Position numbers and translations under genes: made by a program | The notes under the pieces: model-generated | The model's input: the letters and a program-made list of their open reading frames with translations, nothing else | What the model was told of the DNA's origin: nothing | Database searches by the model: none | Shown: in pieces, positions 22,301-63,305 of the stretch | How positions within the stretch are numbered: position 1 is the first letter of the stretch | Layout of the letters: each line of letters begins with the position of its first letter | Assembly (NCBI GenBank): GCA_964035545.1 | Contig: OZ037769.1 | Location: 12,015,633-12,079,632 of the forward strand | DNA from: Bugula neritina | Taxonomy: Eukaryota > Bryozoa > Gymnolaemata > Cheilostomatida > Bugulidae | Direction: 5' to 3' | Length of the DNA: 64,000 nt

Positions 22301-25300
22301 ATGTGATAGCATTAGGCTATATTTTGCTTGTAAACATTAGAAAAAGCCTTGCAAAAACATGCATTCTTTAGGATGAATGCCTGCGATCGATCTAAACTAG
22401 GTCAGATTGTGCAATATTACGGGCACACCAAAGCTGACCTATATAGCGCACTGTAACTGCTTGAGCGTTATTGGTTGATGTTGCGCCCAGCAACCTTGAA
22501 TACTAGCGTTATAGTTAGCACGTGCAGCATAGTTACTGGCGTTCACACGTCACGTTTTAGGCTCTTCTTTTTCATGGCTGAAAATTTTACCTCCCTCAGA
22601 ATTGGAATTTTGAAAAGCTGTTTTCTAGGCACATATCCCTTTGCAAAGCCACAATTGTTTGCATACACATTAGATTATAGTTCATAATTATAATGTGATT
22701 GTAATAAACTAAGATTGAGCAATCCTTTAAGCACCGATCTTACTCATAATTGGTGTATATAGGACATAGAAGTGCAAGGCGTTGAACCCTGCGCTTAGCA
22801 GAATATCTTTAGCCCCTTTATGCTCATAGGTTTGTCCTCCTATCTGAAAATGTTTGTAACATTGAATAATTTTTGAATTATGCCTTCTACCCCCCCCCCC
22901 CCCCGGAATAACTTGCTTTACTGTACCAAAGATTTTTCATGTTGGCCACTAAGTTGACTATCTGAAACCTTTTCTAACAAGTTTTTGTAAGTTCCATTTG
23001 GATCAATGCACTTTTCTCATTTATTTGATTCGCGTTAGTTCTAGTGAGCTGAGGTCCTGGATCAAAGATCTGCGGCTTTCTTTTCGATTTAGTAAGTGTT
23101 CTATTGACATAAAATTTGTGAGAGTTATGTCCGTAGGTAATTAGTAGGGCTATGTTCTTGTGAAGAGCACCATATGCTTTGTCACTCGCATCTGAAAAAA
23201 TTACTAGGGTGGGTTTCCCAACTACTCTCTGCGCCTCCAGGCAACGCTCATGATCCACTGATTGTAATTCAAACATGCCTTGGAAAAAGGTAATCCAGCG
23301 AGCGCCACACACTTTTGGCAGAGCATCGTCCCAGCCTAGTTTGAGCTCCCATGTTTCGCAAAGTAAGAGCTTTGCCTTCAAAAGAAATGGGCTTATCAAT
23401 CCTAGAGAGTCATAGATCCTTATCACTTGTTCTAAGACTGAGCGGCGCGTCAAACTGAGAAGGGTGGCTCCAGGCACCATGTTTCTTGTAGGATCGGGAT
23501 TGCTGTGTACCCCACGCTTTTTTATGCAGAAGTCGAGACAGGTTTCAAAAGTTGATTTGTCCTTTACAGGACTCTGTCCTAGTCAAACAACTTGAATAGT
23601 CTGAGCTGGACTAACCACACTATCTGCTATTGAGTCCACATTCACCCCAGGTGCTGCTTCTCCTCCATATGCCAATGCTTTATAACAACTCCTGCCTCTT
23701 TTAAGACGTGTGATGTGTTTTTTGTCAGCTACAATGCTTTATCTACAGTCTCCGCAGAATCAATCATGTCATCCACACAAGCTGACTCTTTTAATAAAAA
23801 GGCTACGTATGACAACTGGTTCTCAAAAAGCTCAGCAGTCTTGTATACAGCCTCTATGCTAACTGCGGCCGCCGGACGGTCGCCCATACTCCCCCTCTGT
23901 ATAACAAAGGTATCTGGTGGTCGTTCCTCTAAATCCCGCCACAAAAATCGATGACAATGCTGCTCGACTTTCTCAATGTGGATGGAGTTATGCATTTTTC
24001 CAATGTCCCCCAGTAGCGCAATTTCTCTCTCTCTCCACCTCAGCAATACACTTAGTAGGTGGCTGACGTATGAATCTGGTCCTTTAGCAAGGACAGAGCT
24101 GGGTGACATTCCTTTGTGAACTTGACTGAGATTGAAGACCTTTATCACAGGTGTAGAAGATGCTTTTGGGTTACCGATAGCCAAGTGTGACAAGTAAAGT
24201 TTCGGTCCCACACAATCTTTCAACTCTTCCGATGACAACTTTCTCATCACAGCTCTCTTAAACATGTTACATATTTGATCAGTGAAAATTCTAGCCGAAT
24301 CTTCATTTTCTCTCAAAGCCCCCTCTGCAGCTTTTGGTGCAGCCAATGCTGGATAATCATTGTTAGGTAACTCTCGTGCGTCTCTAACTCATAGATTCCC
24401 AGTCACCCAATGCTTGTTAGCTGAACTACATTGCAAATTATAAAAAATACTTTGCAATTCTTTTTCTATGAATGAGAAGGTGAGCCCAACTCCTGGAAAT
24501 TTTTCAGGTTCAATGGCACCATCTTTAATGGTTTGCTCTGTTCCTAGACTTTTACCTTGAATTAATGAATCTCATTTCACAGCTTCCCCCACACCTGTCA
24601 AATATGTATGCGGCTTAGAAAACTCCAAATGCTGCAATACAAGTGCTTCACTGCTTTTTTCTACTGCTTGACTGCACATACTGATTTGTGTAAAATGTGA
24701 TTTCTGCTCTCCGCTCAGTCTTAAGCATGAGTGAGTTCCATGGAGACACATGCCAAATGGACCTTCCAACACTTTTAAGTTAGATTCCGCTGTGGCAACT
24801 ACCTGCCTAGGATGAAGGCTACAAAGGTCTGCTCTAATTAAAATATCTACCCCCTCCGAGTGGCGCTGAAATAGGTTCGGATTTAGGTTAAGAAAGAGCT
24901 CCTTGATGACTTGGAAATTGAGACTCGATACTTTCCCAGTTATCTGGTCAAGTCCAAAACAGGTGATTGTAACTGGTTTTCCTGAACTTGAAGCTAAACA
25001 AACTTCATAGAGGTAAGTCGAGTGTTGTGGCTCTACATTACCAGTAGTAGTCAAGTCGAGCTTAACTGGTCTGAGACGTTTTGCCTTGATTCGCTTTGCT
25101 GCCCGGTGTGTGATAAACATACCGTGGAACCGCTATCAAAAAATACAGTTACTTTCTTTTTAAAATCAACGACGTGAACCTGTTGGATCAAAAGTAAAAT
25201 GGAGCTATTATCACTAGAATGACTAGTTGTTGCTGTTACAAGCTGATTTTTGCATAACAAATAATTGTGATTAGACAGGTTACAAATAGTACACGGAGAT

Positions 25301-37900: not shown

Positions 37901-40900
37901 AGAGAATGAGAGATCATTGTCCGTGAACCAGTTGAGCTCGACAGTGCACCTGAACCTACTCCTCCTTGACCCAGATCTTCAGTGTGGCTGGTCCCATGTC
38001 TAGCCCCAGTGAGAGAGGGTGCCCCAATGGCTGAAGTGAGTGACCAAGGGATCCTTTACCCTCCGGCACTCACACAGTAGCCTGGTATACCAATACATTT
38101 GGAAAGACCGCAAAGAAGCAAGATACCCCCCCCCCCCCCGTTATCTGGCAAATTACCATGTGGGGCTCGTGGGGATATCTCCACCAAGGAGTAATACACT
38201 TAGTACACGTATATGTTCTGACCCCCGCATGGCCATATGTCTCCAGAGCTGGGAAATTTCCCCTGAAGAATTTTAAAACTCATGCAAAATTGGAACAGGA
38301 GTCAGATGTAGAGCTGCTCCACCAAAAATCGTTGTGGAAAATGACTGGACACGTGACCAACGGGTCGTCACATAAAAATCTGACAACGCAAGGCTCAGTC
38401 ATTTTACCTCTTACTCCAGTTGCAAACGGACGCGCTAATTTCAACTTGAAAATTTTAAAAATGGGAATCACTTTACCAGAATCTTTGAACAGCTACTTCC
38501 AAGCAGCTATTTCAGTAGAACTAGACCCTCCATATTCAGAATTCAGTCCAAATTATCAACTTCATCTAATTAATCCGGTCAAAGCCACACTGATTGAAGA
38601 ATTTTAGAGAAGTTTGGGAGATGAATCCCCTTTGACAACCTGTCTCACCAGGACCTGGATTGGCTGCTCTTTTAGACTCACATGACTTTCCAATTATTAA
38701 GACACCATACAAGCAAATGCCGAATTTCGGCGGTAGTACTATAAGCCAGTAACGGCCTGTGCTTAATGTCCGAGATAATGTCATAGATCTGGATGAGGCT
38801 GGGCAAGTCAGCCCGACTTTCCTTCAACCGGAACCCTGGTTCGGTTGCTACCAGCTCGAAAGGTTCCCCAACACCAGCTGAGCATGCCCCCGTTGTTCCA
38901 GTTGAGCCTGCTGCAGAACTCGTGGAAGTTCAACTTCTCTTGGAGGAAAAGCAGGTGATATTGGACAGTGGGGCAGTGTCGATGGATATAGAAGGACCAG
39001 AATGAAAGGCACTGGGGCTGCCCAGGGTGCTGACCGACCGCCAGCACTGTGTCACAGTGGACACCTGGCATAAAGTATACAGGGCGTGTGGCCAAGCGGG
39101 CAACCTCAAATGCCGCCAATGCAAGAGAATATTTCCCACAGCACAGCGATTTTGGGTACACGCCCCACAACACCACACAAACGTTTTCGCCCGTCTGCAA
39201 ACTCTAAGATATCTCCAATAAATATTGATGGCTCTACAACTGAGTGTTTGGTTTGCTTCATTGATGCTGTTATTGAATTTGCAAGACAGTCAATTGCTCT
39301 TAACTCTAAACCAGTGGCGGTAAGATTTAAAGTTTTTACTTCTAGTGGCTGGTTGTTGTTAGTCATTGGGTTCATCTTATGTAGTATTAGTCCTGTAGTT
39401 CTGTCGCTTGCATTATCTAATTGATGCGTTGGTATTCGTTGTGGTTCAGTGGGTAAAATTATGTCGTCACTAAACATTAGTAATCTGCCCAGCATTTCTA
39501 AATCAAGATCTAAGCCGTCGGCTGTTGCTGAGGTTCTATGGAACATTGGAGCATTTGCTTGTTTGTGCTCAAAAACTCTTCTGACATCTCTTAGGCTGTT
39601 CATTTCTTTTTTTGTTATATTCAATAAATATTTTATCTTCTGTTTTTCCAAACATTTCAGGTCATTTAGTTTTGTGTCTGTCAGGTTTCAGTAGTTGTCA
39701 CATTCTTGTTGAAGGAGAGTATGTAAAGATTTTATTCCTTCCTCCATTTTATTGTCTAGAAGAACATTCAATTCTTTATATAATTCTGCAACATCTTTGG
39801 CATCTTGTTCTATTTTGCGCAGATGCATTGGTGCTGTTTTTTATTGCTATTTATAATTGCGTTATGCTGATTAAACTTTTTTCTAATTAATTTAACAACT
39901 GAGTTCGTGAGTTTGGTGATCTTGTTTTCTTTACCCTTTTCTGACCATTCCCTATAGAAACGACTTTTTACTGATATTGCTATAGGCTACTCAGTATTTC
40001 ACTAGGAATACAACCACAAGGTAGCTATTTTGTATTCTATTATATTATTATATATTCAAGTTTTGTTTTTTGTTTGTTGATAATTTATAGTGTTAAGATT
40101 TCAATGAGCAATGATATAATTTCTTGTGTTAATTTTTATTAAAAAAGTCACAATTCTAAGTCAAAAAGCTAACTCACAATTTGACCGGCTTTTTGTACCC
40201 CTACTAATTTTCATCTACATGCTTTTTATAAATAACTATAAATAGCTATAATAGCTTACAGTAATTAGCTATACAGCTGAGTCATGCTAGCTTTGAAATC
40301 AAAATTAGTGGCAGGAAGGGCACAAACCACAGCCCAGGTGAAATGCAGTCTCCGAACCCTGTCTAGCACAAGAAAAAATTGTATACTAATGAATTATGTG
40401 TTGATGCTGTTTTTTATTCAGTTTTCAAGCGAAGAAAAACTTGAAAGATTTCTCAAGTTGGAAGACTTAGAAAAAGCTATAAAAATTGAAGCCGACGTTT
40501 TTAGAATTAGGTTTCAGTCAGAAGTTGAAATCCATGGCATGAAAAACCCAAAATATTACAGGTTTGCTACTGAATATACTTGATTGCAAACATTTTACAG
40601 GTTGTGAGGTTGTGCTGTGTTGCATGCCGCTATTGATGTCATATAGAATTTTACTTTTATTATCCATTCTCTTTTGTCAGCGACTTGTTGACTTTTTTAT
40701 TGAATGTAATAAATTTTGTAGCAAATACCAGTTGGAGCTCGAGCGGACTATTGGTATACTTCACCTGATGGCAGTCGTGGAACAGAAGAAAATGCGACTC
40801 CGAAAACTGCAGAAAGAGCTGAAAGCAGCCAATAAAAGAGCATTGGAGCAGCTTCTCCTAAAACAAAAGGCTACTATTGAGAGATGGATTAAAAATTTAA

Positions 40901-41373
40901 AAGAATCTGTTGATACTGCAATGTCAAAAGATCGTAGATCTGTAGAAGAGCTACAAAAAAAGCTGAAAGAGGCAGCAAACTGGCGAGCTAGAGAACGAAT
41001 TGAAAAGCAGTTGAAGGCAGCTGAAGGAAGGCTTGAGAAAATTAGAAGCAATTGTGATGAAGATGTTCGAAGGTTAAGAGATTATAAAGAGACTGTAGAA
41101 ATCAACATAAAAATTGTTAAAGGAGATGTTACAGTTTATACAAAGCAGGTGAAAGAAGAGATTGAATGCTTAACACCCGAAATTGAGGAAATGGCTGTAA
41201 AACTAAAAGAGAGACTGGAGTCACAATCTAGTTTGAAAATAAAGCATTTCTTCATAAATGCTGGTCTAGTTTTAGGTGCAGTTGTAGCCTCACCCCTCAT
41301 TCTCATTGCTGCCGCCGCATTTGGATTATTGGTGCTAGGTGACACTGTTATAAGTAAAATCAAGCGTAAATAA
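13295..41373 (+). CDS. Atlastin/RNF112/GBP-like large GTPase, 10 coding exons
   Basis: Exons are 13295-13330, 20211-20411, 28380-28517, 28815-28970, 29209-29346, 29433-29574, 31264-31385, 31572-31700, 40422-40561 and 40722-41373 (TAA). All have AG/GT borders and matching phases and join into 617 aa. The N-terminal half is a dynamin-superfamily GTPase: P-loop GVARVGKS (57-64) with the Arg that serves as arginine finger in atlastins, switch-I region GFPWGK..AVTLGI (Thr106), and G3 DCEG (132-135). The G4 position reads VTKN (204-207) instead of the RD of atlastin/GBP. Residues about 402-560 are a highly charged coiled coil. The last ~42 residues are a hydrophobic hairpin ending in KIKRK, as in membrane-anchored atlastins. 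This family fuses ER membranes or acts in innate defence; the role here is unknown. Phylogeny would decide which subfamily. Confidence 0.88.
13331..14030 (+). other. Start of intron 2, with an inverted flank of Gypsy-A
   Basis: 13665-13880 is the reverse complement of 19805-20030, so the two flanks of Gypsy-A are inverted copies of each other. The rest is AT-rich with no gene. Confidence 0.6.
14330..15374 (-). pseudogene. Gypsy-A post-pol accessory frame with C2H2 finger
   Basis: Block 1 (15374-15057) starts [10 protein letters not shown] and includes SPLKNFK. Block 2 (14812-14330) has [11 protein letters not shown] and then [20 protein letters not shown], a C-x2-C ... H-x4-H finger. Both blocks recur in Gypsy-B at the same place, after pol and before the 3' LTR. 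Function unknown; a nucleic-acid-binding accessory protein is an inference. Confidence 0.6.
15880..19340 (-). pseudogene. Gypsy-A gag-pol remains
   Basis: In minus-strand order: gag remnants (about 18730-18000), protease part with [17 protein letters not shown] (expected DTG is KTS), a [11 protein letters not shown] block at 17750-17700, and reverse transcriptase at 16902-16400. The catalytic box reads YLSDAIV, so one catalytic Asp is lost. RNase H follows (YILDEGCSD). Frames change many times. A Trp-Gln-Trp-Thr stretch that is broken in B and C is intact here. Confidence 0.8.
19355..19866 (-). repeat. Gypsy-A 5' LTR and primer site
   Basis: It is colinear with the Gypsy-B LTR (32690-33186): shared AGTTTATAAAGTTG start, TGACTGTCAG, TTTGACCAGTATAA, GAGCTCCTAGTCAGTTTAAG and ATTCAATAAC near the end. 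The B-type TATAAAA has become TATAACAA here. TGGCAGTAGTGAG, the primer binding site, follows on the minus strand at 19351-19339. A remnant of a second LTR (AAGCTGGCAAGCC ... AATTAAGTGCC) is at 14085-14170. Confidence 0.75.
19805..20030. repeat. Right inverted flank of Gypsy-A
   Basis: Reverse complement of 13665-13880 (shared TTTTCATTTGCATAC, GTTTTAAGGTACTT, CGAGTATTGAGGTAG, CACAGGTTATCATAATAACA). The part from 19866 inward is LTR-like and is also found at the start of Gypsy-B. Confidence 0.7.
20211..20411 (+). CDS. GTPase exon 3 (P-loop)
   Basis: GGAAAG|GAC to AAG|GTTAGT, 67 codons, phase 0 on both sides. It contains [10 protein letters not shown] and the P-loop [12 protein letters not shown], in the atlastin order (PVQI--, then P-loop, then FL--ML-Y). 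The acceptor has a weak pyrimidine tract; upstream acceptors would bring an in-frame stop. Confidence 0.85.
20412..21446 (+). other. Intron 3, part before the BEL insertion
   Basis: AT-rich intron with no supported gene, RNA or transposon. It ends in AGTAT, the target duplication of the BEL element. Confidence 0.5.
21447..21815 (-). repeat. BEL 3' LTR
   Basis: 369 bp, TGTGCCAGG ... CCTGACACA as read on the plus strand. Preceded by the target duplication AGTAT. Confidence 0.92.
21959..22726. mobile_element. TTAA-flanked terminal-inverted-repeat element nested in BEL
   Basis: TTAA (21955-21958) precedes AGGATTGCTCTATCTT. At the other end the inverse, AAGATTGAGCAATCCT, is followed by TTAA (22727-22730). 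The 16-bp ends differ at one position. 768 bp with no coding capacity: a non-autonomous element. TTAA choice is typical of piggyBac-like transposases, but the ends do not match a piggyBac sequence I recognise. Confidence 0.75.
22974..24346 (-). pseudogene. BEL reverse transcriptase and RNase H start
   Basis: 24346-23729 holds [53 protein letters not shown] and CVDDMIDS, the BEL/Pao reverse transcriptase blocks (catalytic DD preserved). After a short gap, 23480-22974 has [20 protein letters not shown] and [12 protein letters not shown], then [12 protein letters not shown], the first catalytic Asp of RNase H. The frame decays after that and no integrase follows. Internal deletion makes it non-autonomous. 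Confidence 0.85.
24572..25987 (-). pseudogene. BEL gag C-part, zinc knuckle and protease
   Basis: 25987-25616 is a gag block ([19 protein letters not shown]; Pfam DUF1759 type). 25410-25270 has two knuckle-like clusters ([13 protein letters not shown] and [14 protein letters not shown]). [14 protein letters not shown] is the aspartic protease active site with DSG (DUF1758 type). 25120-24572 continues the protease region. Frames are broken between the blocks. Confidence 0.8.
26292..26835 (-). pseudogene. BEL gag N-terminal part
   Basis: 26835-26605 and 26627-26292 overlap in different frames, with Met starts and coiled-coil composition ([33 protein letters not shown]). This is the usual N-terminal gag of BEL elements, upstream of the DUF1759 block. 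One frameshift separates the two parts. Confidence 0.65.
26885..27356. repeat. BEL leader with short tandem repeats
   Basis: 26888-27040 repeats ACTGGATACWG/ACACTGGATACTGGCACTTGATACTG-type units. 27240-27356 repeats TACTGCTGGTGATTTAG / TACTTCTGATGATGTTTAG. A TTGGTGCTCC-like minus-strand site (about 27165-27145) could be the displaced primer site. The expanded leader separates it from the LTR. Confidence 0.5.
27356..27724 (-). repeat. BEL 5' LTR
   Basis: 369 bp, the same start and CCTGGCACA end. Followed by the second AGTAT. Confidence 0.92.
27725..28379 (+). other. Intron 3, part after the BEL insertion
   Basis: AT-rich; the AGTAT duplication opens it and the exon 4 acceptor closes it. No other feature seen. 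Confidence 0.5.
28380..28517 (+). CDS. GTPase exon 4 (switch I)
   Basis: ATATTTTAG|AAT to AGG|GTTAGA, 46 codons, phase 0. It carries [20 protein letters not shown] and [11 protein letters not shown], matching the F-W-G----TTGI-IWS-PF region of atlastin and RNF112. Confidence 0.85.
28815..28970 (+). CDS. GTPase exon 5 (G3 motif)
   Basis: TTGCCAG|ATC to AAG|GTATTT, 52 codons, phase 0. It reads [20 protein letters not shown] stands where DTQG/DTEG occurs in relatives. Confidence 0.88.
29209..29346 (+). CDS. GTPase exon 6 (G4 region)
   Basis: CCTTGTAG|CTG to CTG|GTAAGC, 46 codons, phase 0. It ends the GTPase core; [14 protein letters not shown] aligns with the F-SLIFLVRDW segment of atlastin, with TKN in place of the RD dipeptide. 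Confidence 0.85.
29433..29574 (+). CDS. GTPase exon 7
   Basis: TTATTTTAG|GTT to AGT G|GTATGA; it ends in phase 1 and is completed by the GT of exon 8. It contains [14 protein letters not shown] and FPFPGEI, the end of the G domain (L---I---F--I--FL-P-PG in relatives). Confidence 0.85.
29690..30330 (-). mobile_element. Solo-LTR-like insertion in intron 7
   Basis: Read on the minus strand, this GC-richer block has a TATA box (CAGTATATAAGAAGG, near 29980), AATAAA (near 29865) downstream of it, and a TGTTATTATAATAACA palindrome at its upstream edge. That is the layout of an LTR. No second copy or internal coding is in the window and no target duplication was found, so borders are approximate. 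Confidence 0.4.
31264..31385 (+). CDS. GTPase exon 8
   Basis: CCTCTAG|GT ATT to GAG|GTGATA. The phase-1 start matches exon 7; it ends in phase 0. It encodes a helical segment after the G domain. Confidence 0.8.
31572..31700 (+). CDS. GTPase exon 9
   Basis: TTATGTAG|ACA to CAG|GTAGTC, 43 codons, phase 0. It is acidic and helical ([20 protein letters not shown]). A (TA)n tract with a hammerhead ribozyme starts about 35 bp downstream, in the intron. Confidence 0.8.
31735..31960. repeat. (TA)n microsatellite split by a hammerhead
   Basis: Long TA tracts at about 31737-31832 and 31903-31967 flank the hammerhead copy at 31833-31890. Apparent open frames here are pure Ile-Tyr repeats, not genes. 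Confidence 0.95.
31833..31890 (-). ncRNA. Type I hammerhead ribozyme, degenerate copy (HHR1)
   Basis: On the minus strand: helix I strand TCTGTG, core CTGATGA, helix II region TGGG-ACAAA-TCCC, core GAAA, helix III CAG-CTG-CTG, U16.1, then the cleavage-site base and CACAGA closing helix I. All core bases are present. Two changes relative to copies 2 and 3 should weaken it: the closing pair of helix II is now U-C, and the cleavage triplet is GUU instead of GUC. It lies in the intron after exon 9, antisense to the GTPase gene. Confidence 0.85.
32330..32615 (+). repeat. BEL-2 LTR-like sequence, plus orientation
   Basis: 32460-32610 is the reverse complement of 40000-40145 (shared GGTAGCTATTTTGTATTC, ATAATTTATAGTGTTA, TTTCAATGAG-AATGATATA). 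The other copy adjoins a BEL gag fragment, so this is taken as an LTR of the same family in opposite orientation. Confidence 0.5.
32690..33186 (+). repeat. Gypsy-B 5' LTR and primer site
   Basis: It contains TATAAAA (33003-33009), the conserved GAGCTCCTAGTCAGTTTAAG block, AATAAA (33077-33082) and, just after its end, TGGCAGCGGTGAAAT as primer site. It is colinear with the Gypsy-A LTR. Confidence 0.75.
33200..36240 (+). pseudogene. Gypsy-B gag, protease, reverse transcriptase, RNase H
   Basis: gag remnants to about 34010; the protease region has [18 protein letters not shown] (expected DTG reads YTG) and [16 protein letters not shown]. Reverse transcriptase at 35358-35900 includes [20 protein letters not shown] and [20 protein letters not shown], with a catalytic box reading QLDDVII (Tyr of YLDD lost). 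RNase H (36000-36240) has [13 protein letters not shown] at 35943-35945 replaces the Trp that Gypsy-A keeps; Gypsy-C has the same stop. Confidence 0.8.
36560..37860 (+). pseudogene. Gypsy-B integrase
   Basis: A zinc-binding region (HTR-like [10 protein letters not shown]) precedes [19 protein letters not shown] (first Asp of the D-D-E core), TAQGAQF then a TAG (37219-37221), and an E in [10 protein letters not shown]. The C-terminal part has [13 protein letters not shown]. The TAG after QF is shared with Gypsy-C. Confidence 0.75.
38158..39221 (+). pseudogene. Gypsy-B post-pol accessory frame with C2H2 finger
   Basis: Block 1 (38158-38607, 149 codons open) begins [10 protein letters not shown] and includes FPLKNFK. 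Block 2 (38793-39221) has [11 protein letters not shown] and [20 protein letters not shown] followed by QHH, a C-x2-C ... H finger. It is homologous to 15374-14330 of Gypsy-A. There is no resemblance to an envelope: no signal peptide or membrane segment is visible. Confidence 0.6.
39222..39960 (-). pseudogene. BEL-2 gag fragment
   Basis: Minus-strand reading gives a coiled coil ([20 protein letters not shown]), one stop, then [20 protein letters not shown] and finally [12 protein letters not shown], the entry to the DUF1759 gag block. It breaks off there at the Gypsy-B junction. It is a different family from the BEL element at 21-28 kb. Confidence 0.6.
39961..40275 (-). repeat. BEL-2 LTR-like sequence, minus orientation
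   Basis: 40000-40145 is the reverse complement of 32460-32610. 40201-40272 is also a direct copy of 32623-32690 (ACTAATTTTCATCTA ... ATAGCTATARTAGCT). This mix of inverted and direct copies shows a rearranged insertion. Confidence 0.5.
40422..40561 (+). CDS. GTPase exon 10
   Basis: TTTTATTCAG|TTT to TAC AG|GTTTGC, ending in phase 2. It is helical ([20 protein letters not shown]). It follows an 8.7-kb intron full of retroelements. Confidence 0.8.
40722..41373 (+). CDS. GTPase exon 11 (coiled coil, membrane hairpin, stop)
   Basis: The acceptor AATTTTGTAG|C AAA TAC gives the one-nucleotide start that completes the phase-2 codon. The nearer TTTTGTCAG at 40672-40680 would throw the frame and hit a stop. 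The exon encodes a long Lys/Glu/Arg/Leu coiled coil, then a hydrophobic run from about 41247, then TAA at 41371. No AATAAA is seen in the next 180 bp. Confidence 0.82.

Positions 41374-41598: not shown

Positions 41599-41658
<60 letters not shown>
41599..41658. repeat. (TA)n microsatellite
   Basis: Uninterrupted TA tract that ends exactly at the HHR2 repeat block. Confidence 0.95.
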
Positions 41659-41661
<3 letters not shown>

Positions 41662-41716
41662 AATCTGTGGACAGCAGCTGTTTCGGGGTTTGTCCCCTCA
41701 TCAGCACAGAACAGAG
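41659..41716 (-). ncRNA. Type I hammerhead ribozyme (HHR2)
   Basis: Minus-strand fold: outer helix I CTC/GAG, internal loop TGT/TT, inner helix I TCTGTG/CACAGA (6 bp), core CTGATGA, helix II GGGG/CCCC with loop ACAAA, core GAAA, helix III CAG/CTG with a 3-nt loop, then U and the GUC cleavage triplet. Cleavage falls between 41670 and 41669. Every conserved core base is present. The very short helix III is the form known from Penelope-like elements and small metazoan retrozymes. Confidence 0.93.
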
Positions 41717-41941
41717 TACCATGGCCCACACCTTCGCAATAGTAGAAACTCATGTCTCTATTAAAGCATATTTAAAAGGTGTGTAAACTCAAGCCAGAGA
41801 GCTCAATTGACTCTAGGGGTCACCTAGGAGTCACGTGCCTTGCAAAATGCTAGCAGCTTGAGTTTGTTACCATAGTGAGAGAGCTCAATCGCTGAATGTC
41901 ATTGCTGAGCATTAAGTGAGAGCATAATACCTCAATCTGTG
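41670..41941 (-). ncRNA. 272-nt retrozyme-like unit between two ribozymes
   Basis: Cleavage by HHR3 (between 41942 and 41941) and HHR2 (between 41670 and 41669) would release exactly this minus-strand segment, with a 5'-hydroxyl and a 2',3'-cyclic phosphate, the ends that RtcB-type ligases join. It has no coding frame. An 81-bp block (41659-41739) recurs identically at 41931-42011, so this is slightly more than one unit of a tandem array. Circular RNA formation is an inference. Confidence 0.7.
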
Positions 41942-41988
41942 GACAGCAGCTGTTTCGGGGTTTGTCCCCTCATCAGCACAGAACAGAG
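41931..41988 (-). ncRNA. Type I hammerhead ribozyme (HHR3)
   Basis: Identical in sequence to HHR2, with the same fold and GUC cleavage triplet; cleavage between 41942 and 41941. It is followed at 42012 by a long (TA)n tract. Confidence 0.93.
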
Positions 41989-42011
41989 TACCATGGCCCA
42001 CACCTTCGCAA

Positions 42012-42017
42012 AATATA

Positions 42018-42093
<76 letters not shown>

Positions 42094-42112
42094 CATATAT
42101 ATATACATATAC

Positions 42113-42145
<33 letters not shown>

Positions 42146-42151
42146 CATATG

Positions 42152-42225
<74 letters not shown>

Positions 42226-42234
42226 TACATATAC

Positions 42235-42320
<86 letters not shown>
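42012..42320. repeat. (TA)n microsatellite with TACATA variants
   Basis: About 300 bp of TA with scattered CA/TG substitutions. All long frames through it are Ile-Tyr repeats. Confidence 0.95.
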
Positions 42321-45848: not shown

Positions 45849-47705
45849 TCAATTACTTCGCCCCCCCCAGACTTCTTTTGCACATGTCGATGTCGACCTG
45901 CTATAAACACTATGCATGTCGACCAAGTCGCACAAGAAGTCTCTCAAATAAGATGGTGGCGCCCTAGTACGTTGGCTATGTTCCAACTGTACTGGGATAT
46001 TTGCTGCTACTGGTGACTCTACCACCACGGGTGGTGTCGCCAGTACGGGTGGTTCCACCAGTACGGGTGGTTCCCTCCCAGCTGCCTCTTCCTGATGAAT
46101 TTGAGAAAATTCCATTTCATCCGGGGCGACAGGCGTGTCGGCCGGCTCCACTAGTGGTGGGGCCGGCTCAGACCAATCTTCCAGTGTGCCGGCCGCCTCC
46201 TCCTGGGGCGGGGGCGGCTGGGGCAAGTTGGTCGGTGCGTCGGCCGCTCCCTCCTGACCTGGCAGCACTTCTTCTATTTCTCTGTACGCCATGCCTCGCC
46301 CGCTCATGGGAGGGCGCCGTGCAGGCTTCAAGAGTGGAGGGGCCTGTCCTGCCGCATCAGGGCTTGCCTAGTATGGTTTTAACTGTGCTTTGTTTTGAAT
46401 CGACATTTGTCCAAAACGTTCCACTTTATAGGTGTGATTTGGCATCACCTTAATCACGCAATAAGGACCCACAAACTTCGACTGTCCGCGCCGCCGGCGA
46501 TGACTAGTCATCCAGACTCAGTCTCCCACTTTGTACAAAGGCGGGTCGTCAGAGTCACCACTCCTGACCTGTTACTGCTGCTCACGTAATACCTTGTGAG
46601 CTGTCCTCATGCGTTTCACGAGCTCATCCACATAGTCATGGACGCTGTTCTCTGGAGCCGGAACGTGGTAAGTTACGTGCTCAGGCACTCTGGTTTCTCT
46701 CTCCAGCATGAGAAAATTAGGGGTCTCCAGTGCACTGGAGTGAGGGGTACTACGGTTAGCTCACATGATTTGCGGCAGCACCAAGTCCCACTCTTCTTGG
46801 CTCTTACCGATAAGCAGGCTTCTCAGTGTGTTCCTTAGCATTCGGTTGTTCCGCTCCACAACCCCATTCCCTTGCGGATGATACGATGTCGTCCAACTCT
46901 GGTTTATCTCCCACGTTTTACAAAGATCGCTCATGAGCTGCGACTAAAACTGGGTGCCCTGATCAGAGTTTAACTGTTCCGGCAAGCCGAAATAGCAGAA
47001 CACCTGCTGATCCAAGGCTCTGGTCACCGTGGGGGCCGACGCATCTGGAATAGCCAGCGCATCAGCCCACCGCGTGAAATGGTCAGTTAACACCAGTATC
47101 CAGTTATTACCTCTCACTGTCGTGGGCATGGGACCTACCAGATCTACAGCAACTACCTGCCACAGACGACCGGCATGGAGGCGGCGCCTCCCTGCGGTCT
47201 CAGTGAAGCTGCCATGCTTACTAGCTTGGCATACCTCACACTTCTGCACCCGGAGTCGGACATCCCGGTCATACCGGGCTAAAATCACCTGCCCAGCTCC
47301 TGCATGAGCCTGCTTATGGGTGTCCCAGATCAACTCCCGCTGCAAAGCAAACGGACAGACTACCCTCTTTCGTTCACGGCGATTTGCCCCAGTTGTTAAC
47401 GATATCGTTAGCAACCCATTGCCATTAAACCGGAGGGAGTCCCAGCGGTCACAGAAATACTTGAACTCTGCACACTTAACCCACTGTTCGGTCTTACTAG
47501 GTCGCCGTCCCTCCTTCTTGGCCCGGACTAGGTCAGCTACTACCCTTGGTAGTGTAGCTTGGAGCCGACACAGCTCCTTGACGTTCCTGAGTAGCGTGGG
47601 GTTTGCATGAAGGTTGTTAACAGCTTTACTAGAGGCTTCGGACCGAAGTTGTCCTTCCTCCCAGCTGTATATACCTGCTTTCTCTACTGGCTTTTCAATG
47701 TCCAA
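45849..47705 (-). pseudogene. Gypsy-C integrase and polyprotein tail
   Basis: 47705-46944 has the His/Cys zinc site (HKQAHAG ... CEVCQASKHG), VVAVDLVGPMPTTVRGNNW and LNSDQGTQF, two Asp of the D-D-E core. A TAG (46946-46944) interrupts, then the frame resumes with the Glu in GVVERNNRML. 46331-45849 is a Pro/Glu/Val-rich tail ending near RAPPSYLRDFLCDLV, the usual end of this Gypsy clade's polyprotein. Besides the shared TAG there are further single stops. Confidence 0.82.
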
Positions 47706-47913
47706 GCGAGGGGGTCCATCGTCCCTACGCTCGCTATTTTGGCATTGCTTACACCCATCTGCCCGGCGGCGGCTCAGTCCGTCGGCTTTACCGTGTTTCT
47801 TACCGGGTCGGTGTTTGATCCGATAAGAAAACTCTGCCAGGATTTCAAGCCAGCGCTACTTGGCTAGATGGCTCAGCCCGTCGACACAGCCATATCAAAG
47901 ACACATGGTCTGT

Positions 47914-48213
47914 TCATAATTTGAACGTGCATCCGTACATATATGGTCTGAAGTGTTTTACCACCATGACTACTGCCAGGAGCTCTCTCCTGGTGGTACA
48001 GTAGTTTTTCTCAGGCGCCGACAGAGCCTTACTATAGTAAGCTACCACCACCTTGTGGCCATCTTGGACCTGAGACAGCACAACCTCCACATTGTGGTTA
48101 CTGGCATCAGTATCCAAAATGTACTCCTTTGCCGGATCAGGGTACGCCAAGATGGGCGCCTCTACCAACCGATCCTTGAGGTGGTCAAATGCCTGCTGTT
48201 TTGTCTGTGTCTA
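47914..48213 (-). pseudogene. Gypsy-C RNase H
   Basis: YILDTDASNHNVEVVLSQ (catalytic Asp), [20 protein letters not shown] (catalytic Glu) and VKHFRPYMYGCTFKL. A TAG at 48213-48211 sits at the Trp codon also broken in Gypsy-B. Confidence 0.85.
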
Positions 48214-48288
48214 CTGCCATCGCACCCCCTTTGCTGTCAGCCGGTTTAATGGCTGTGCAATTCCTGCGAAGTCTGGTATGTACTGACG

Positions 48289-48880
48289 TTAGTACCCTAC
48301 CAGGTCCAGGAACGCTCGCAATTCAGGGAGGTCGACAGAGACAGCCCAGTCCCTCACAGCCCATACCTTCTCGGGGTTGATGGCGACCCCGTCTTGACCA
48401 ACTACATGGCCCAGGTACTTAACCTCTTGTTGCAGCAATGTGCACTTAGAGGGCTTGAGTTTCAGAACAGCAGCTCGAAGTCTGTCAAACACTTCTCTGA
48501 GCCGACTGACATGAGTGTCGAAGTCAGGAGAGATGACAATGACATCATAGAGGTAGATGAGCAAAATCTTCCAGTGTAACCCACTCAGGACTTGCTCCAT
48601 GAGTCGCTGGAAGGTGGCCGGCGCAGAAGTAAGTCCAAATGGCAACACCTTCCATTTCCAGAGCCCATCCCGCGTAATAAACACGGCCTTGTCCTGTGCA
48701 TCAGGACTCAGGGGCACCTGCCAATACCCACTTAGCAAGTCCAACGTACTGGAGAACTTGCTGCCAGCTAAAGCATCTAACGACTCATCGATCCTAGAAA
48801 GAGGGTAAGCATCCTGAATGGTCATGCTGTTCAGTTTGCGATAATCCACACAAAACCTCTAGCTCCCATTCTTTTTCCGA
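48289..48880 (-). pseudogene. Gypsy-C reverse transcriptase
   Basis: [39 protein letters not shown] and LPFGLTSAPATFQRLME are intact. The catalytic box is YLYDVIV, so the first Asp of YLDD is Tyr and activity is likely lost. A TAG stands in place of Trp in the GSW-RF stretch just upstream (near 48860). Confidence 0.85.
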
Positions 48881-61324: not shown

Positions 61325-61535
61325 GTGCATTTTGATGGTATTTTTTAACAAGTCTAGTCAATTCTGATATTTGTTTGAAAGCCTGCATCCTGCATGTTTC
61401 ACATTTGTGGGGCATATTATAGTTTCTTCTGTGTTTGTCTTTATATGATTGTCTAAACTAAACTAAATGATAATTGAAGTTCTTTCTACAACTTACGCAC
61501 TTGTATTGCCTTTCTTCACTATGTGTTCTCACAGA
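61325..61535 (-). pseudogene. C2H2 zinc-finger gene relic, 3' part
   Basis: Minus-strand reading: VRTHSEERQYKCVSCRKNF then a stop (finger linker H-S-E-E-R-Q-Y-K-C in place of HTGEKPYKC), followed in another frame by PHKCETCRMQAFKQISELT and LVKKYHQN, a second finger with one His replaced. It continues the fingers at 63472-63640. Confidence 0.65.
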
Positions 61536-63305
61536 AGTGTTATACAGAAGTATAAAACAGAGCGAAAATCTTGCAAAACATTGCTTCGTCACAAGAAGAG
61601 GAACTATGTAGTTGAGAAGGTATGTAAACCATTAGAGAGGGGAAATTCCAAGCCTTTTTTCAAACACCTGAGGCAAAAAACTGGTCAAGATAATATTTCT
61701 ATGTCTCTTACTGACCCTGATACTAATCAACTAACTGACAACTCACTGAGATGCGCTGAAATCTTGAACAGTTATTTTTATAGTCAGTTCTGCCAAGATC
61801 ACCAGGTGTCACAATATCCAAATTATAGCAGTGATACTCATAACATATGCATATCCATCAAGGGGCTTGAGTCACTTATTAGAGGTTTGGCAAATGGTAA
61901 ATCACCGGGGCCAGACGGCATAAGAAAACCAGACCTATTAGTTGATACTGGAATAAATGCCACTTGTCTTCAGCACATATACCATGCCTCACTTAAATCT
62001 GGAAAACTACCAAGAGAGTGGAAACTTGCTAATGTAACCCCAATACATAAAGGAGGAAGCAAGGAATCACCACAGAATTATAGGCCTATCTCTCTCACAA
62101 GCATTCCGTGCAAAATGCTTGAGCACATAATCCTGCACTACCTGAATGCAACCCTTGACAATATACTTCACAACAGGCAGCATGGTTTTCGGAAGGGAAT
62201 GTCATGCGATACTCAGCTGTGCTCAACATACCATGACATTGCCAAAGCGCACGACCAATCACAAGACACACATGCAATTGTTCTAGACTTTAAAAAAGCA
62301 TTTGACAAAGTCCCCCATTCCCTACTACTACTGAAACTACGTCGCATTCCAGAAGTTAACCCACAGATTATAAATTGGATTCAAGATTTCATCACCAACA
62401 GAAAACAGAGAGTTGTAATCAAAGGCTCATGCTCAACTGAGCTCCCAGTAACATCGGGCGTCCCCCAAGGATCTGTACTAGGACCCACACTATTCTTGGT
62501 CTATATTAACGATTTACCAAGTTGTGTCAATTGTTGTGTCAGTCTTTATGCAGATGACACCCTGTTGTACCAAAGAGTAAACTCAGAAGCAGATGCTGCA
62601 GACTTCCAGGTCAATATCGATGCAGTATATAACTGGTCCCAACAGTGGAAGATGCCTTTTAATGAAAGTAAATGCCATGCTATATCATTTGGTCGCCAAA
62701 CAGGCCTTCCATCTTATAAGCTTGGGAGTACACCTGTCCAATGGACTGAAGAGACCAAGTATCTCGGTGTGACCATGCAGAGTAACCTTAAATTTGACAA
62801 ACACATTGTGCTGAAATCACAAAAAGCTAGCAGAGTCCTAGGAGCAATAAAGTTTGCTCTCCATGATGCTCCAAAAAATGGCAAACTCTTGGCTTACACC
62901 AGCCTCTGCCGTCCATTGTTGGAGTATGCAGATACCCTCTGGGATCCTTATTTAAAAACCACCATACATGATATAGAAATGGTTCAGAATCGTGCTGTGA
63001 GGTTCATATCAGGTCTCAAGGGGCGAGAGAGTGTTAGTGACGCTCGATGCGAACTGGGTCTACTACCATTACAAACGAGGCGTAAAAATCATAGACTCAC
63101 ACTATTGACACGTATTCTACAGTCTGAAGCCACACACAGTACACTTGCATCAGACTATGATGAGGTTGTGGAAAATCGCTCTCTCATGTCCGTAACTACG
63201 AGATCAGCAGCCCAAGGTTTACCCAACTCCATTTCTTCTCGCTCTAGCTGTTACCACCAAAGTTTCTTACCAAGAACGATACGCGACATGAGAGGATTTA
63301 CCTAG
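61467..63305 (+). CDS. LINE reverse transcriptase (open, 5'-truncated)
   Basis: 612 codons without a stop. In order: NGKSPGPDGI, REWKLANVTPIHKGGSKESP, QNYRPISLTS, QHGFRKGMSCDTQL, VLDFKKAFDKVPHSLLLLKL (first catalytic Asp), SGVPQGSVLGPTLFLVYIND, and YADD at residues about 361-364. Thumb and C-terminal blocks follow (ETKYLGVTM, AYTSLCRPLLEYADTLWDP, MVQNRAVRFI, ARCELGLLPLQTRRK). The first 25 or so codons are flanking DNA, so the Met at 61467 is fortuitous. All visible catalytic residues are intact; only the missing endonuclease marks it as dead on arrival. Insertion must be recent compared with the Gypsy elements. Confidence 0.88.
   Translation: MIIEVLSTTYALVLPFFTMCSHRSVIQKYKTERKSCKTLLRHKKRNYVVEKVCKPLERGNSKPFFKHLRQKTGQDNISMSLTDPDTNQLTDNSLRCAEILNSYFYSQFCQDHQVSQYPNYSSDTHNICISIKGLESLIRGLANGKSPGPDGIRKPDLLVDTGINATCLQHIYHASLKSGKLPREWKLANVTPIHKGGSKESPQNYRPISLTSIPCKMLEHIILHYLNATLDNILHNRQHGFRKGMSCDTQLCSTYHDIAKAHDQSQDTHAIVLDFKKAFDKVPHSLLLLKLRRIPEVNPQIINWIQDFITNRKQRVVIKGSCSTELPVTSGVPQGSVLGPTLFLVYINDLPSCVNCCVSLYADDTLLYQRVNSEADAADFQVNIDAVYNWSQQWKMPFNESKCHAISFGRQTGLPSYKLGSTPVQWTEETKYLGVTMQSNLKFDKHIVLKSQKASRVLGAIKFALHDAPKNGKLLAYTSLCRPLLEYADTLWDPYLKTTIHDIEMVQNRAVRFISGLKGRESVSDARCELGLLPLQTRRKNHRLTLLTRILQSEATHSTLASDYDEVVENRSLMSVTTRSAAQGLPNSISSRSSCYHQSFLPRTIRDMRGFT

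Follow-up and report, generated by a model that had tools for sequence, protein, structure and literature searches.

A hammerhead retrozyme family of Bugula neritina with 3' ends fixed at TA microsatellites, and a Penelope-like element as its candidate helper

How small animal-type retrozymes re-enter DNA is an open question, and an insert in the genome of the bryozoan Bugula neritina belongs to a family that bears on it. Metazoan non-LTR retrozymes were described as carrying type I hammerheads in units of 170-400 nt, with LINEs or Penelope-like elements proposed as helpers (Cervera and de la Pena 2020, PMC7229834), and a 2020 review states that retrozyme repeats show no motif revealing the helper element (PMC7761336). 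The insert lies in the window, that is, the whole 64,000-nt stretch of DNA that was analysed, in which the following features were recognised:

41931..41994, minus strand: upstream hammerhead ribozyme, type I (read in the sequence; helices counted in family copies)
41659..41722, minus strand: downstream hammerhead ribozyme, type I (read in the sequence; repeat comparison)
41670..41941, minus strand: 272-nt unit between the predicted cut sites (sequence)
41655..42011 (L048:2288-2644), minus strand: retrozyme insert of 357 nt, equal to 1.31 units (BLAST segmentation)
41600..41658, no strand assigned: (TA)n tract on the 3' side of the insert, putative primer site (sequence)
42026..42320, no strand assigned: TA-rich microsatellite on the 5' side of the insert (six pure TA tracts of at least 16 nt)

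The initial annotation had reported two identical type I hammerheads on the minus strand at a spacing of 272 nt, and sequence inspection and repeat comparison agreed with it. The 85-nt blocks around the ribozymes were 99% identical at a spacing of 272 in a repeat search of the window, their sole difference (41658 versus 41930) lying where the insert meets its flank and not in the ribozyme. The complete core that had been claimed (CUGAUGA, GAAA and GUC) was present in both minus-strand copies, as was the claimed helix geometry, with a 6-bp helix I (UCUGUG/CACAGA) and an outer 3-bp stem (CUC/GAG), a 4-bp helix II (GGGG-ACAAA-CCCC, loop ACAAA), and a helix III (A-CAG/CUG-U, 3-nt loop) that measures 4 bp if A15.1-U16.1 is counted. 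Cuts after GUC are predicted at 41942/41941 for the upstream ribozyme and at 41670/41669 for the downstream one, positions that confirm a 272-nt unit running from 41941 down to 41670. The Rfam type I check proposed earlier was negative, the window having no Rfam match at the gathering threshold and, at a relaxed threshold, only RAGATH-1-hammerhead (15.2 bits, E 6.6). Rfam was therefore dropped as proof of a hammerhead and, its scores being below threshold, the identification was based on the core motifs themselves, on their pairing and on the copies across the genome. A 59-nt piece folded without constraint was uninformative (minimum-energy fold not a hammerhead, z -1.20). Judging by the core, transcripts carrying two complete hammerheads would be expected to cleave themselves.

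The window copy had been called dimeric; at 1.31 units it is less than a dimer, yet both ribozymes are complete. Its 5' start corresponds to unit position 203 and its 3' end to unit position 11-15, the last bases being common to the insert and the TA repeat. The GC content of the unit was 45.2%, and its predicted circular fold reached -82.5 kcal/mol versus -67.5 ± 5.1 in 100 shuffles (z -2.96); the minimum-energy circle was without the hammerhead fold, and forcing the hammerhead cost about 10 kcal/mol. An ORF with reverse transcriptase and GIY-YIG domains was sought in the insert and not found, the window frames of at least 120 aa that cross it being runs through the TA repeat. The claim that no coding lies nearby is too strong, as a 276-aa ORF (40543-41373, plus strand), coiled-coil-like with a hydrophobic C-terminus and without a Pfam match, ends at 41373, about 280 bp away. 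Simple patterns for the Pol III A and B boxes expected of a schistosome-type SINE with hammerhead were absent from the unit; the schistosome repeats carry a tRNA part. Both these repeats and the newt hammerhead satellites measure a few hundred bp and bear type I hammerheads (as cited in PMC7229834 and PMC4918200), like the window unit, the newt helix III being weaker than that of the window ribozyme. The earlier reading as a non-autonomous small retrozyme fits the tandem 272-nt units, the 45% GC, the hundreds of dispersed copies and the compact predicted circle. The window element is almost certainly a member of a retrozyme family without coding capacity, and is best placed among the small non-LTR retrozymes, which are already known.

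In the 215.8 Mb of genome searched, a 25-nt ribozyme block spanning the end of helix II, helix III and the 3' strand of helix I occurred at 569 places with at most 2 mismatches (control 0). The core pattern CTGATGA-N4..16-CGAAAC-N5..12-GTC occurred at 368 places versus 9 for the reversed pattern, and all but about three of its places among the matches listed resembled the window family. These genome-wide pattern counts are complete totals, while single places were inspected among the matches listed. Viral contigs gave 0 matches to the ribozyme pattern. The 67 loci fetched (L009-L048 and L050-L076) were best similarity matches, a non-random set favouring the ribozyme end, and BLAST split them into 79 segments, some of them neighbours or local duplications and so not all independent. 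Segments ranged from 0.1 to 5.06 units, many of them less than one unit, and 28 of the 79 measured at least 340 nt, which leaves room for two complete ribozymes.

Among 114 full-length ribozymes 37 were distinct, of which 34 of equal length were compared, three of other length being excluded. In these 34, 97.2% of cells paired versus 30-52% with slid partners. No double compensatory change was found among them, and within-column shuffles paired equally well; the family is too young for such changes, and covariation neither supports nor contradicts the ribozyme fold. Two subfamilies were separated by 12 diagnostic positions, the sole one within the ribozyme changing a helix II G-C pair to G-U. 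Variability was lower in the ribozyme than elsewhere (0.014 versus 0.031), and selection is not claimed from it because copies were picked by ribozyme similarity. A divergent hammerhead-like core with helices unlike those of the window family (G000:C1:4239114-4239148) may be a chance occurrence or a second family.

What is new here is the integration anatomy, in which the inserts stop at a single position of the unit on their 3' side, next to TA microsatellites. The 3' end fell at unit position 15 in 69 of the 79 segments and at positions 9-15 in 75, the remaining four lying at positions 1, 6, 23 and 134. This common site is just past the ribozyme cut site, while 5' starts were scattered across the unit. 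The 3' flank was TA-alternating in 66/79 segments and the 5' flank in 48/78; TA tracts of at least 16 nt, with a margin of 3 nt on either side, take up only 0.75% of the 64-kb window. Because position 15 includes a TAT common to the repeat, the true join comes after unit position 11 or 12. In four arrays (L030, L037, L045 and the window array, L048) the internal units have G at position 12 and the terminal copy has A, which looks as if it had been supplied by the TA target. Genome-wide, the ribozyme block was followed by GAGRTATATAT at 426 places and by the next unit at 124; these numbers and the 569 blocks are not strict parts of a whole, since their mismatch limits differ. Some inserts lie at the junction within a composite repeat, as do those at L027 and L028, which (GT)n precedes and (AT)n follows; this speaks for a microsatellite older than the insertion. 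Duplication outside the TA tract was not above control (5/77 versus 4.5%), and one inside TA would be invisible. A signal of stopping after exactly one lap (11/77 starts in unit positions 1-16, p 0.005) is not claimed, because starts in that range are TA-rich and, in any case, 24 of the 47 5' ends flanked by TA begin with TA or AT. Among the titles and abstract openings listed in a search of open papers, none concerned retrozymes with a microsatellite target or the place where retrozyme reverse transcription starts, which is no proof of absence.

Plain satellite-like DNA with a relic ribozyme, multiplied through recombination or slippage among TA tracts, is a very improbable account of this anatomy. 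TA tracts are recombination-prone, and L011 holds two arrays of equal length and ends 590 bp apart, like a local duplication; yet DNA recombination would not fix one end position in 75/79 segments, the loci lie on many contigs with one constant end and scattered other ends, and the ribozyme core has been kept in 368 places.

Some copies are arranged as pairs. Retrozyme copies stand tail-to-tail across one TA tract at L056:1239-1853 and back to back at L017:1547-1698, arrangements expected if both strands of the TA repeat can prime. Two outward pieces at L051 (1467-1692 and 1887-2098) both start at unit position 61 behind an identical 30-nt upstream flank, and resemble a single insertion that was duplicated in inverted orientation.

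The constant 3' end together with the scattered 5' ends implies that reverse transcription began at a fixed RNA site. As this start lies 11-15 nt beyond the cut site, the template was not the simple linear product of two cuts; the RNA copied crosses the cut site, and it was either a ligated circle or RNA left uncut there. That the template crosses the cut site is very probable, and the array structure suggests that it was probably a circle rather than uncut RNA. Retrozyme units differed by 0.60% within arrays (55/9215) and by 3.59% between arrays (35839/998566), and a circle copied in several laps explains this simply, along with arrays of up to 5.06 units. The alternative is that uncut tandem linear transcripts are copied, by a Penelope-like or other enzyme, with the ribozyme trimming the RNA or being dispensable for insertion. 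Any RNA crossing the cut site would yield the observed junction, and source arrays of identical units would also give a low within-array difference; in the anole Penelope assay, moreover, ribozyme-dead RNA was inserted equally and none of the reads stopped at the cut site (PMC11167929). Linear arrays copied serially with 5' truncation would nevertheless become shorter with every cycle, whereas arrays with two to five units are still present, and published animal retrozymes are described as accumulating as circles (PMC7229834); copying of uncut transcripts is considered unlikely.

A candidate for the enzyme was found among the Penelope-like elements of the same genome. The initial annotation had linked the unit to Penelope-like element repeats; the window insert is not itself such an element, and these elements appear instead as its likely helper. 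A first reading that the genome had no Penelope, drawn from the single SLX1-like gene (identified by eye) that matched Pfam GIY-YIG, was overturned by locus L091 and by a reverse transcriptase search with a Penelope-type query, which gave 64 matches (best E 1.5e-52); the longest of their open frames measured 777 aa. The endonuclease region escapes Pfam, and no Pfam, NCBIfam or PDB match was found for it; by eye, putative GIY-YIG-type motifs were recognised at the C-terminus of the L091 protein (YKITC...TYVGETGRRL) and also in L090. Two Penelope-like 3' regions were read, L091 (C3:16071950-16073500) and L090 (C3:11210650-11211900), and both end at (TA)n, which begins 63 nt (L091) or 96 nt (L090) past the start of the last strand of a hammerhead-like fold, the short and long ends differing by 33 nt. 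At L090 a retrozyme faces the Penelope-like end across the same TA tract. The Penelope 3' motif has a stem I (CUACU/AGUAG), CUGAAGA, a stem II and GAAA, without stem III; the predicted fold agrees with this, and no Rfam ribozyme match was obtained for it. The end motif occurred at 363 places genome-wide, with the short end followed by TA at 157 and the long end at 179, and 9 short-end rows among the matches listed read AATTA, the long form.

The pairing of neighbours was scored for both kinds of element. Among the 100 Penelope-like end motifs listed, 27 of 29 neighbours within 3 kb were outward, one was inward and one same-strand; among 100 listed of the 569 retrozyme blocks, 12 of 15 neighbours were same-strand, two outward and one inward. 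Three retrozyme/Penelope pairs stood tail-to-tail with end motifs 57-70 bp apart, one of which was read across the TA tract. The outward pairs and the two end forms match the published Penelope anatomy of inverted pLTRs with an optional tail on one side, 33 nt here and 31 bp in the rotifer (PMC3846280). In vitro, Penelope initiates internally at two adjacent sites that bound the genomic tail, and its enzyme cuts AT-rich DNA on both strands (PMC11167929).

Since the retrozyme and the Penelope-like element have their target and initiation style in common, the latter is somewhat favoured as the helper. Against a common enzyme, Penelope has two end forms and outward inverted pairs, whereas the retrozyme has one main form and is mostly tandem; the two sequences have nothing in common beyond 9-nt matches; and in the anole assay insertion in vitro did not depend on the ribozyme, uncut RNA being the main substrate (PMC11167929).

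Mobilisation by a LINE-type element targeting (TA)n, in place of a Penelope-like element, was also weighed. Several LINE families with long open frames are present in the genome, LINE products, too, typically have a constant 3' end and are truncated on the 5' side, and LINE-like duplications of 15 bp are reported at Nematostella repeats (PMC4918200). The four families taken from the best 150 of 2124 reverse transcriptase candidates were nonetheless rejected as partners, since the tails of 12 copies were (CAAA)n, (AGAGGTAATC)n, (GTAA)n or ACA-type, none of them TA. LINEs begin copying at the 3' end of the RNA (PMC11167929), while the retrozyme start would lie inside the circle; a LINE helper is judged quite improbable.

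The joint explanation that best fits the family, a retrozyme circle with a TA-primed internal start and a Penelope-like enzyme as the likeliest agent, is held with reasonable confidence. Transcripts of arrays with two complete hammerheads would cut themselves into 272-nt RNAs, as the core suggests, and the host would ligate these into circles, as in published retrozymes. A (TA)n DNA end would then come to lie on the circle's UAU, which is 12-15 nt past the cut site, and reverse transcription starting there would run from part of a lap to about five laps. Such a process would leave the anatomy observed, namely that inserts in TA microsatellites have a constant 3' end and a changing 5' end and are made of identical tandem units. 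The likeliest enzyme would be that of the genome's Penelope-like element, whose 3' ends also lie at (TA)n. The full proposal, in which a circular hammerhead RNA of 272 nt would be a parasite of a Penelope-like enzyme that opens TA microsatellites, starts at a fixed internal site past the cut and makes several laps on closed RNA, is put forward tentatively. If true, the genome would hold a record of target-primed reverse transcription on a circular RNA template and would identify the helper on which a small retrozyme depends.

The window family is an unusually readable integration record among small retrozymes. Its start site and its target are both fixed, and the same genome contains a candidate helper that shares this target; together these form a countable signature, which makes the ideas of a circular template and of a Penelope helper directly testable.

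Like metazoan retrozymes, the family has a type I hammerhead, tandem 272-nt units, GC below 50%, no coding capacity, a compact predicted circle and many dispersed copies; unlike them, as far as the available text describes them, its 3' ends are tied to a single position in the unit and to TA microsatellites (PMC7229834). AT-rich insertion, an internal start downstream of the hammerhead and tandem copies are features it has in common with Penelope-like retrotransposons (PMC11167929, PMC3846280), from which it differs in encoding nothing and in having a complete helix III and a single main form of end. The plant LTR retrozymes are also non-autonomous, with hammerheads that would release a circularisable RNA, but are described with type III ribozymes, LTRs of about 350 bp, a tRNA primer site and 4-bp duplications, in contrast to the type I ribozyme, the 272-nt unit and the TA tracts found here (PMC4918200).

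Other mobile elements were recognised in the window. A LINE-type reverse transcriptase (RVT_1, E 2.8e-40) lies at 61467-63305 on the plus strand and belongs to a repeat family with (AGAGGTAATC)n tails. Retrotransposon remains occur on the minus strand at 22974-23582, with a Pao-type peptidase domain, and at 46944-48858, where an integrase core stands beside a reverse-transcriptase-like frame recognised by eye.
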